From: Bacteroidia bacterium
GTDB lineage: Bacteria > Bacteroidota > Bacteroidia > Bacteroidales > VadinHA17
Direction: 5' to 3'
NCBI GenBank assembly: GCA_026391595.1
Contig: JAPLDY010000086.1
Coordinates: 1-45,931 of the forward strand
Length of the DNA stretch: 45,931 nt
Shown here piece by piece: positions 7,184 to 9,870 of this stretch. Made by a program: the position numbers and the translations under genes. Every line of letters begins with the position of its first letter. Position 1 is the stretch's first letter. Under the pieces are notes generated by a model that was given only the letters and a program-made list of their open reading frames with translations, had not been told where the DNA came from and did no database searches.

Positions 7184-7261
7184 ACTCACCCCCTTCCTTC
7201 GCTCCGCTCAGGATTCCCTCTCTCTCCACCGGCTGGCGGAAAGAGGGGGTTGGGGGTGAGT
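7184..7261. repeat. Palindromic intergenic repeat after eno
   Basis: Outer arms ACTCACCCCC (7184-7193) and GGGGGTGAGT (7252-7261) are perfect inverted copies. Inside, CCCTCT pairs with AGAGGG. This is a large imperfect hairpin of the type often scattered in Bacteroidetes intergenic regions. It may end eno transcription, although no T-run follows. Similar but not identical palindromes occur at 14481 and 23161. Confidence 0.7.
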
Positions 7262-7407
7262 GCATGAATAATATAATGATAGCTTCATTTTCTGGTCTCT
7301 TCCGACGTTATTAACAATTGTTGATAACTTATGTTCATATCGGGTTTACAACATGGATTGCTTAAAATTGGATTTTATTCATTCTTGATATAAATTTGAT
7401 CTATCGG

Positions 7408-7910
7408 GTGAGCGATAAAAGGCTGCTTGAACGATGTGGAACCGGAAAAGGTTACTTAAATGAAACATGATCCGGCTCATCCAGACCTTCGGGCCTGCGC
7501 ATCATGAGAGCCGAAGCCTGAGCGAAGGGAACCTGGTCCTAGACCAATCCCTGGTGTTCAGCAGGTCGACGAAAACCGGAAACGTTCTTTCAACGACTGG
7601 GTCACAGGGCCTCAGAAAAACGAAGGGCTTCGGCCCCAAGTGATCTGAAACTGATGCCAGATCCTCCGGGAGATGTGCATCGGAGCCTGAAAGACACTTC
7701 GTCCTGGAATGTCCTGTCGAAAGACGGGAACAAAGGGACAGCTGGAAGGATCTGCTGTAACAAGCAGAACCGGAAGGCCATGGGTTGCAAAAGCAGATCG
7801 TAAGACCTGTAATGCAGCCGGCCAGAATAACAGTAATCCGACGCCGTTAACGGCTTCGGTCGTAAACGGTGAATGGGAACTACTCCTCGGAATAGTTCCC
7901 ATTATTGTTT
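7408..7910 (+). ncRNA. Structured RNA element, possibly a truncated or ORF-less group II intron (domain I-like)
   Basis: There is no credible coding frame, but there is a dense set of nested helices: GAACCGG/CCGGCTC (7439-7445/7472-7478, one mismatch); CCTG/CAGG (7517-7520/7562-7565) enclosing AGGGA/TCCCT and TGGTC/GACCA (7534-7538/7542-7546); and a multi-branch junction AAGTG/CACTT (7638-7642/7695-7699) enclosing ATCTG/CAGAT and CTCC/GGAG with GATG/CATC. TCTGC/GCAGA follows at 7751/7764. The start GTGAG at 7408 fits a group II 5' splice boundary, and stretches such as AAAAGGTTACTTAAATGAAA and GCGAAGGGAACCTGGTCC resemble, from memory, domain I of Bacteroidetes group II introns. No reverse transcriptase and no recognisable domain V were found, so this may be a remnant or another large RNA class. 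RNase P, tmRNA and SRP RNA signatures are absent. Confidence 0.5.
7872..7910 (+). terminator. Terminator-like hairpin at the end of the structured RNA
   Basis: A perfect 11-base-pair stem (AATGGGAACTA at 7872-7882 with TAGTTCCCATT at 7893-7903) around a 10-base loop, followed by ATTGTTTTAT. This could end transcription of the structured RNA. It lacks the AGC triad and bulge of a group II intron domain V. Confidence 0.55.
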
Positions 7911-7916
7911 TATAAA

Positions 7917-8049
7917 CCTGCCCCCTTCAAATCCATACCCTAGCCCCCAAAGGGGGGATTTTTCTCCTACTCGCCCCCTCTCCCCATCCTTCTTCGGTCT
8001 TTGGTCATTGGTCTTTTATCTTTTATCTTTGGTCTTTTATCTTTTTCCT
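7917..8049 (+). repeat. Low-complexity leader with short direct repeats before the UbiD-family gene
   Basis: This C/T-rich stretch contains an inverted CCCCC/GGGGG hairpin near 7942-7960 and two exact copies of GGTCTTTTATCTTTT at 8010-8024 and 8031-8045, ending just before the ATG at 8050. Although the downstream frame stays open through it, the translated Pro/Ser/Leu-rich sequence has no family similarity and is not considered coding. Confidence 0.5.
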
Positions 8050-9870
8050 ATGCCATATACCGGCTTATCTGATTTCATCTGTGATCTGGAAAAACATTCG
8101 GAACTGCACCGAATTAAGACATTCGTAGACCCCGTTCTCGAAATAACCGAAATAACCGACCGCATATCCAAATCCGGAGGCAACGCCCTGCTGTTCGAAA
8201 GTACTGGTACATCATTTCCTCTGCTCATTAATGCTTTTGGCTCAGATAAACGCATGGCTATGGCTTTAAGCCAAAGAGACCTTGATCAGGCAGCTGTCGA
8301 AATAGCCTCAATCTTTGATGGTATTTCAGAATCAAGGGATTCCCTGCTTAAAAAAATATCTTCAATCCCCGTGCTTGTAAAGATTTCCGGTTACCTGCCT
8401 TCCCACGTTAAGGGAAAGGGTATATGCCAGCAGGTTGTTCACAGGAACCCCGACCTTTCAATCCTACCCGTTATTAAGTGCTGGCCTCATGACGGTGGCC
8501 GTTTTATTACGCTCCCTTTGGTTCACACAATTCACCCGTTGACGGGGAAAACGAATGTGGGGATGTATAGGATGCAAATACTCGATAATAACACTACTGC
8601 AATGCACTGGCAGCGCCATAAAACCGGAGCCAATCACTTTGAAGAATGGAAGAAGACCGGCAGGAAAATGCCTGTCTCGGTCGCACTTGGCGGGGACCCT
8701 GTATATACATACGCGGCAACAGCACCGCTGCCTGAGAATATTGATGAGTATATTCTTGCAGGTTTCCTGAGAAAAAAGAAGGTAAATCTTGTCAGATGCA
8801 TCACTAACGATCTATATGTTCCTTCTGATGCAGATATTGTCATCGAAGGGTATGTTGACCCTGCAGAAGAACCGGTGCTTGAGGGTCCCTTTGGCGATCA
8901 TACCGGATTTTATTCACTGGCCGACTACTATCCGAAGCTGCATGTGACATGTATTACGCATTCTCATAAAGCTGTTTATCCTGCAACTGTCGTTGGCATT
9001 CCTCCCATGGAAGATGTATGGTTTGCCAAAGCGACGGAAAAAATCTTCCTGGCTCCCCTGAAACTTGTAATTTTACCCGAAACCGAGGATTTTCACATGC
9101 CTGAGGCCGGAGTAGCCCATAACCTGGTGATTGTAAAAATCAGGAAATCGTACCCCGGGCAGGGAAAAAAAGTAATAAGCTCCTTAATGGGAGCCGGTCA
9201 GATGATGTTCACCAAATATCTTGTGGTCGTCAGCGGCGATGTCGATATCAGGAACTACAGGCAGCTTTCAGAACATGTCTTCAGAAATACGACTTTCAAA
9301 AATGATCTGCTTTTCATGTCAGGTCCTCTGGATGTCCTTGACCATACTTCGGATGTTCTTGCACTTGGCGGCAAGATGGGTATCGATGCTACTATAAAGT
9401 TTAAGGAAGAGAAGCCGGTAGAAATGACTGAGGATTTTTCTGTTGAAATGAAAGTGGTTGTAACCGGACTTAACCAGTCAGAGGATCGTCAGGCAGTTGC
9501 AAAATCAAAAAAAGAGTTTGCAGAGAAATTCCGGAAGGATGATATCAGACTTATATTGGCTGTTGATAAAACCGTGGATGTAAACGACATGTACCAGGTT
9601 GCATGGCAGGTACTTGGAAATTCAGATCCGAGTCGTGATGCTGAACTTGTACCGGATAACATTCTTTATATTGATGGAACCATTAAGGCATACCGCGATG
9701 GTGGTTTCATGCGTAAATGGCCAAATGTCGTTTGCTCTTCAAAGGAAACAATTGAATGCATTGACAGGAAATGGGAGTCATTGGGGATTGGCGATTTAAT
9801 TTCTTCTCCCTCAATAAAAAATTCACGTCTTCTACTGCCGGGTAATGACGAGGTAATTACAAATTCCTGA
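8050..9870 (+). CDS. UbiD-family decarboxylase (menaquinone biosynthesis decarboxylase type)
   Basis: A 606-residue member of the prenylated-FMN-dependent UbiD decarboxylase family. Supporting stretches are LPVIKCWPHDGGRFITLPLV near residue 150, the prFMN/metal-binding segment NVGMYRMQILDNNTTAMHWQ followed by RHKTGANHFEEW, the EGPFGDHTGFYS catalytic-site region and VGIPPMEDVWFAKATEKIF. The best-known role in organisms without ubiquinone is a step of the futalosine route to menaquinone; that function is inferred, because no other pathway gene is in the window. I start at ATG 8050 (MPYTGLSDFI), because the upstream in-frame extension is low-complexity intergenic DNA. The gene is probably monocistronic. 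Confidence 0.9.
   Translation: MPYTGLSDFICDLEKHSELHRIKTFVDPVLEITEITDRISKSGGNALLFESTGTSFPLLINAFGSDKRMAMALSQRDLDQAAVEIASIFDGISESRDSLLKKISSIPVLVKISGYLPSHVKGKGICQQVVHRNPDLSILPVIKCWPHDGGRFITLPLVHTIHPLTGKTNVGMYRMQILDNNTTAMHWQRHKTGANHFEEWKKTGRKMPVSVALGGDPVYTYAATAPLPENIDEYILAGFLRKKKVNLVRCITNDLYVPSDADIVIEGYVDPAEEPVLEGPFGDHTGFYSLADYYPKLHVTCITHSHKAVYPATVVGIPPMEDVWFAKATEKIFLAPLKLVILPETEDFHMPEAGVAHNLVIVKIRKSYPGQGKKVISSLMGAGQMMFTKYLVVVSGDVDIRNYRQLSEHVFRNTTFKNDLLFMSGPLDVLDHTSDVLALGGKMGIDATIKFKEEKPVEMTEDFSVEMKVVVTGLNQSEDRQAVAKSKKEFAEKFRKDDIRLILAVDKTVDVNDMYQVAWQVLGNSDPSRDAELVPDNILYIDGTIKAYRDGGFMRKWPNVVCSSKETIECIDRKWESLGIGDLISSPSIKNSRLLLPGNDEVITNS

Follow-up and report, generated by a model that had tools for sequence, protein, structure and literature searches.

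A probable stand-alone structured RNA of Bacteroidota that matches no Rfam family

About 500 bases of a contig from a VadinHA17 bacterium (Bacteroidales) raise the question of what a large, densely paired sequence without a credible gene might be. The contig was analysed over 45,931 nucleotides, and this whole stretch of DNA is called the window here. The initial annotation placed the element at 7408-7910, saw in it a resemblance to domain I of group II introns, and left three options: an intron remnant, an ORF-less form acting in trans, or a different large ncRNA with its own terminator. The two intron options found no intron match, and the third fits. The element is very probably a stand-alone, trans-acting structured RNA of a class absent from Rfam. 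Comparison of related sequences shows a promoter of the primary-sigma type at constant distance, a fold that an end helix closes beside a nearly invariant two-strand internal loop, and then a hairpin and a terminator, all at one inherited site in the genus and beside different neighbours elsewhere. The features concerned, in window coordinates, are as follows.

7307-7328, no strand assigned: 22-bp palindrome GTTATTAACAATTGTTGATAAC, a candidate operator
7329-7353, no strand assigned: further conserved upstream DNA, TGTTNATA.. GGTTTACAACA, from the 51-sequence alignment
7368-7370, plus strand: TTG of the putative -33 element, placed by its position relative to the -7 box
7391-7398, plus strand: putative -7 promoter element TAAATTTG, matching the Bacteroidota TAnnTTTG
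7402-7912, plus strand: the structured RNA, its 5′ end placed by promoter spacing; fold, alignment and compensation
7404-7409, plus strand: end helix P1, 5′ strand, pairing with 7836-7841
7410-7420, plus strand: 5′ strand of the conserved internal loop, GAGCGAUAAAA, with almost no variation among 46 genus sequences
7421-7424, plus strand: helix P2, 5′ strand, pairing with 7820-7823, every cell paired
7425-7819, plus strand: apical part with multi-branched domains, variable between copies
7826-7835, plus strand: 3′ strand of the conserved internal loop, AAUAACAGUA, whose AAUAAC is the same in all 51 genus sequences
7836-7841, plus strand: end helix P1, 3′ strand, from the 51-sequence genus consensus
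7842-7871, plus strand: hairpin P3 with a UUCG loop, UNCG-type in most relatives (by eye)
7872-7911, plus strand: terminator made of hairpin P4 (11 pairs) and a T-run, its sequence likewise conserved

The dense pairing and the lack of a credible gene are both borne out. The RNA at 7400-7915 folds to -198.8 kcal/mol, compared with -157.9 ± 6.5 for 100 dinucleotide shuffles, none of which was as low (z -6.33). No conserved ORF was found among 51 genus sequences, in which the longest run without a stop codon in any one frame measures between 28 and 153 codons; because no frame is kept open throughout them, a protein-coding gene was rejected. The initial limits nearly hold, with the start shifted to about 7402, and the perfect 11-pair hairpin described at the end is indeed formed by 7872-7882 with 7893-7903, followed by the T-run. 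A junction said to be closed by AAGTG/CACTT is absent from the consensus structure, where AAGTG is unpaired and CACTT pairs elsewhere. The GTGAG at 7408 is present, partly in the end-helix strand and partly in the conserved internal loop.

The consensus of the 51 genus sequences comprises 24 helices and 145 pairs with 93.7% of cells paired; 21 of the 24 helices contain at least one pair changed on both sides, as do 77 of the 145 pairs overall. One pair of P1, for example, is A-U in 36 of the 51 sequences and G-C in 14, and one pair of P2 is A-U in 30 and G-C in 17; across families, another P1 pair is G-C in 61 and A-U in 21 of 83 copies. A lack of compensatory change had been named beforehand as an outcome that would speak against a functional RNA; the covariation proved strong. 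Judged by shuffle and slide controls that leave some relatedness in place, and on structures derived from the same sequences as those tested, the genus alignment holds 461 doubly changed cells against 140.6 ± 10.5 when shuffled and 77 doubly changed pairs against 41.9 ± 3.1, with neither value reached in 500 shuffles, and sliding the partners by 1-3 columns never gave more than 47 pairs or 113 cells; for the 68 3′ modules compared across families, 23/25 pairs and 259 cells are doubly changed (87.1 ± 9.0 cells when shuffled), including all 12 pairs of P3. For the A3 alignment, 68 copies were taken from 82 non-redundant ones, L069 and 13 copies from the genus having been removed by hand and L138 earlier, and the joined core was built without L023, which has a differing 3′ motif. 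A pairwise covariation test with a phylogeny-preserving null gave a weak result, with no pair at E<0.05 in the genus, where helix pairs nevertheless made up 10 of the 13 highest-ranking ones and the first of all lay above every null value; the same type of test on the cross-family core gave one or three pairs at E<0.05, depending on the null.

In the minimum-energy fold of the element of this contig taken alone P1 is not formed, and the sequence from Draconibacterium orientale folds only modestly better than its shuffles (z -2.52). The 216-nt short form L164, trimmed at its terminator, has P1, P2, P3 and P4 as in the consensus (z -7.66); when the folded sequence extends past the terminator, P1 is not formed.

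What the aligned copies share is P1 (AYCARG paired to CYUGRY), an internal loop whose strands read UGAGMGAUAAAA and AAUAACNGUAR, P2, P3 with a mostly UNCG-type loop, and the terminator. The cross-family copies were found through parts of the loop strands, so that the invariance of the loop among them is partly selection, which is not so in the genus; similarly, the AUAAC of the 3′ strand in 68 cross-family modules occurs in sequences picked using TAAC in the pattern. Around this core, in the order end helix, two-strand internal loop, second helix, UNCG-type hairpin and terminator, the element takes forms of about 220 to about 620 nt. The lengths were counted on the 85 elements kept minus L062, L063, L064, L129 and L147, whose end was misplaced; the longest forms include ones of 614 and 619 nt, measured separately. 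The distance from the 5′ to the 3′ motif is mostly 400-540 nt and about 300 in some copies, and it falls to about 210 in Aquiflexum relatives and to 130-170 in the shortest forms. Some of the apical part is missing in the congeners L053, L054 and L055, and most of it is gone in the shortest forms. Because R2, a model trained like R1 on 46 of the 51 genus sequences, detects the short form L136 at E 9e-9, the long and short forms are related. A hairpin loop in the 5′ domain, ACUUAAnUG (window 7451-7464), is apparently kept in the shortest forms L136 and L164 (by eye), and is possibly a contact or antisense site.

Within the genus the element occupies a constant place. When 98 genomes were searched by blastn, 53 of the 58 that belong to the genus matched strongly (E<1e-20), the source genome with its single copy included, mostly at full length and with 73-94% identity; in the 40 genomes of other families the best E was 0.0039. 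The five congeners without a convincing 3′ module (G002, G018, G019, G030 and G040) gave weak matches at E 0.004 and 0.03 or, in three cases, none, and two of the five lacking a convincing copy are 98-100% complete. A UbiD gene follows on the same strand at 47/53 loci, the contigs of the remaining 6 ending within 0.5 kb, and either enolase or ribosomal protein L17 lies upstream at 48/53, with neither in the available DNA of L024, L037, L054, L055 and L056. The constancy of these neighbours in the genus argues that the element is an inherited locus and not a scattered insertion. Between L17 and the RNA, enolase is truncated or was not found, its neighbours being kept, at L018, L022 and L027 and at L043, L046, L049 and L051; this may be a moved gene or an assembly effect.

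A decayed or ORF-less group II intron, surviving as a domain I remnant, would account for the GTGAG string near the start and for a large multi-branched fold, both of which recall group II intron RNA. Rfam, which presumably includes the group II intron models, nevertheless gives it no footing. None of the Rfam 15 families scored at gathering level anywhere in the window, and the covariance-model scan that had been proposed, run over 7200-8100 with permissive filters against 4227 Rfam families, returned no intron family, group II included, at E≤10; the six matches at that level were to microRNA, snoRNA, Xist, LhrC and riboswitch families, all below threshold. Eight relatives compared with Rfam at E≤5 gave one snoRNA match below threshold, within L164 (24.4 bits against a gathering score of 40, E 1.8), and 10 other relatives at gathering gave one tRNA, outside the element. 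The initial annotation had seen neither a reverse transcriptase nor a domain V; the domain V catalytic hairpin found no match via the Rfam models, and there is no reverse transcriptase among nine neighbouring proteins of the window; nor is there one among ten neighbour proteins of relatives. Moreover, the element differs from such introns in having no intron context and what appear to be its own promoter and terminator, with the promoter-like box at fixed spacing, and it is a single copy at one orthologous site within the genus. It is also not decaying, because compensatory changes maintain its helices. The resemblance to domain I finds no support in these comparisons, and the intron reading is extremely improbable. 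RNase P RNA was rejected as another candidate, RF00010 lying at other places in 5/5 genomes.

Beyond the genus, the search in other Bacteroidetes that had been suggested found relatives beside different genes in Draconibacterium, Mariniphaga, Gaoshiqia and Aquiflexum, and the named hosts among the matches listed also include Tangfeifania and Cognataquiflexum; Aquiflexum belongs to Cytophagales and Draconibacterium to Prolixibacteraceae in the NCBI taxonomy. The 5′-motif scan of named genomes gave at least 80 stretches, and among the matches listed 73 carry the 3′ motif, namely 70 together with L089, L132 and L144, which show it under a laxer pattern; L097, L114 and L122 end too early, and the 4 listed stretches without the motif lie in records labelled Tolypothrix, Bacilli, Thiogranum and Anaerolinea. 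R1, a covariance model built on the 5′ domain, had matches at E≤0.1 in 25 of the 393 genomes searched in the order, and most of the 16 R1 loci inspected have AATAAC.GTA downstream under the strict pattern, with a variant seen by eye in L066 and L069.

A model of the 3′ module, R3, reached further. At E≤0.001 its matches in the order fall in 90 of the 393 genomes, representing 35 families and 50 of the 206 genera; in the class sample 31 of 395 genomes matched, the source genome included (30/394 others). Both tallies may include false positives, and the 303 genomes of the order without a match indicate a patchy presence. The 5′ motif was found upstream of 42 of 59 R3 loci checked, out of 136 distinct R3 places, and in 0/59 reversed controls; a looser 5′ pattern, applied without a control, adds 4 loci. 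Among the 46 checked loci that hold no training sequence (13/59 hold one), 29 have the motif. Because it is present at 27/30 loci of the order and at 15/29 loci of the class sample, the class-level tally is less certain than that of the order. In 463 kb, mostly of D. orientale, only two true copies scored above 23 bits with R3. In a phylum sample, a 22-base 5′ motif with at most one mismatch occurred in 9/395 genomes, of which only the source genome and G536 look real; R3 matched G536 as well as G571 and G654, both missed by the 22-base motif, and the 5′ motif therefore undercounts. Genomes with two or three RNA copies occur. Two copies lie 0.8-2 kb apart on one contig at L103, L116, L131 and L137, with an M48-peptidase-like gene between them at L103, L116 and L137. 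A phage or plasmid origin was rejected, with no blastn match in phage and plasmid records and no exact 5′ motif in viral contigs.

If the RNA were a cis-regulatory leader or attenuator of the gene behind it, UbiD in the genus, the same-strand UbiD follower at all genus loci whose contigs extend beyond 0.5 kb and the terminator at the end of the RNA would both be accounted for. The copies elsewhere speak against this: among the matches listed for named genomes, 55 copies of which a few are of the genus, the closest gene downstream shares the strand of the RNA in 27, runs opposite to it in 23 and is lacking nearby in 5, and the downstream genes fall into 32 protein clusters, 17 on the same strand and 15 on the opposite one. 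A cis role is unlikely because of this near-even split of strands and the many neighbour clusters, and we consider the leader reading very improbable. No constant neighbour gene was found outside the genus. Ten neighbour proteins drawn from the common clusters were alpha-L-fucosidase, biotin carboxylase (twice), carboxyl transferase, biotin carrier, PLP-dependent decarboxylase, UbiD, M48 peptidase, a protein resembling RimK and one that matched no Pfam family, that is, metabolic proteins or proteins of no known type, with no shared one. Acyl-CoA carboxylase genes recur near the RNA among the matches listed (biotin carboxylase at 13 loci, carboxyl transferase at 13 and biotin carrier at 9), at L091, L094, L106, L111, L112, L122, L124, L136, L149, L150, L158, L159 and L164; the lineages are several, including MAGs labelled Cyclobacteriaceae and Cytophagales, and sides and strands vary, so this neighbourhood may be an ancestral location or a coincidence.

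That the RNA is a free-standing transcript is suggested by the DNA in front of it. TAnnTTTG, the consensus of the Bacteroidota -7 box given with that of the -33 element in the relevant passages of PMC7366714, stands 4-5 nt ahead of the 5′ motif in 102 of 112 copies and in 104 of 14950 control windows, the 112 upstream regions being those of 83 copies together with R3 loci pre-selected for a TTT run upstream; in the 83 copies, chosen without any upstream feature, the box is present in 78. Of the 102 copies having the -7 box, 93 show a TTG within the 10 nt where it is expected, compared with 16.6% of control windows. Further upstream, the palindrome GTTATTAACAATTGTTGATAAC seems to contain two inverted DnaA-box-like 9-mers. 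Its 14-bp core occurs within 150 bp upstream of 62/112 copies and in 23/9482 overlapping control windows, TTATTAACA at 69/112 against 49/9482, and the textbook DnaA box TTATCCACA, exact, at 16/112 against 42/9482, mostly in Aquiflexum-type copies (by eye); in the 83-copy subset, 53 have the palindrome core and 14 have TTATCCACA. Searches allowing up to 3 mismatches locate the palindrome GTTATTAACAATTGTTRATAAC at a single site per genome in G000, G010, G022 and D. orientale, and this site lies 75-96 bp ahead of the RNA. The TGTTNATA../GGTTTACAACA repeats stand about one helical turn apart, and similar strings are seen in other families (both by eye). The upstream repeats could thus be DnaA sites.

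Such sites also invite the reading that this is an origin-of-replication region, in which the DnaA-box-like DNA is what matters and the RNA serves replication locally. The enrichment of TTATCCACA and TTATTAACA and the one palindrome per genome in four genomes would suit it. In D. orientale, however, the RNA lies at 0.42 Mb with dnaA at the record start, and the GC skew of 20 sampled stretches reverses at 1.7-2.05 and at 4.2-4.6 Mb; the origin of that genome lies elsewhere. Some genomes carry two or three copies, and the RNA itself is under structural selection, and the origin reading is very improbable, slightly more so than the leader. Comparable to the leader in its low probability is the reading as an RNA-polymerase-binding equivalent of 6S RNA in Bacteroidota. 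A stand-alone RNA with an end helix and a conserved internal loop is in keeping with it, as is the lack of an RF00013 match in 5/5 genomes; yet a multi-branched fold of 500 nt is unlike 6S RNA, which is rod-shaped. The missing match means little, because RF00013 was silent also in a Bacteroides ihuae control, although B. thetaiotaomicron has an experimentally validated 6S RNA, as a passage of PMC7366714 states.

The stand-alone, trans-acting RNA would be transcribed from its own promoter at about 7402 to an end at about 7911, and would act as a free molecule, most likely as the core of a ribonucleoprotein. A protein partner would recognise the internal loop beside P1, and the apical domains would be lineage-specific arms. 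More tentatively, the palindrome and the DnaA-box-like repeats may bind a regulator that times synthesis of the RNA. The fullest form of this proposal is a class of ribonucleoprotein-core RNAs across Bacteroidota whose promoter is controlled by DnaA or a dedicated regulator at the DnaA-like repeats, giving an abundant RNA tied to replication or growth state; we regard it as rather doubtful.

To our knowledge, only a handful of large structured RNAs without a known function have been described in bacteria, and none of them has been easy to place. No prior description of the present element was found in the open-licence PMC literature, and it has no Rfam family; it thus appears to be new as an RNA class and, as a kind, to join a short list of large orphan RNAs. 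The raiA-motif RNA, or ModT, of Bacillota and Actinomycetota is likewise a conserved structured RNA across large bacterial groups, and acts in trans by a molecular mechanism described as open in the pertinent part of PMC11706538; unlike it, the present element has no Rfam match, belongs to a different phylum and is known from sequence alone. OLE RNA, comparable in kind as a large structured RNA, is portrayed in PMC9723947 and PMC10898510 as an ornate RNA of about 600 nt, part of a ribonucleoprotein, with an unsettled biochemical function; it occurs in Gram-positive bacteria and is bound by OapC, whereas the present element has no Rfam match or constant neighbour. GOLLD and ROOL, which PMC12286853 describes as structured RNAs of very large size and unknown function, are encoded in phages and prophages according to the same paper; the element differs from them in having no exact 5′-motif hit in viral contigs and no blastn match in phage or plasmid records.

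Named cultured hosts include D. orientale, with a complete genome, and Mariniphaga, Aquiflexum and others, with drafts; because the RNA is present in these strains, expression, deletion and pull-down are directly possible. The natural size range of about 220-620 nt already marks a minimal core, and many intergenic regions of Bacteroidota would gain an RNA gene. Two repeats flank the element in the window. Between enolase and the RNA, at 7185-7263, lies a strong GC-rich inverted repeat, CTCACCCCC...GGGGGTGAG, which gave a sub-threshold microRNA-model match only, and between the RNA and the UbiD gene, at 7998-8046, short TTTGGTC/TTTTATC repeats follow one another in tandem-like fashion.
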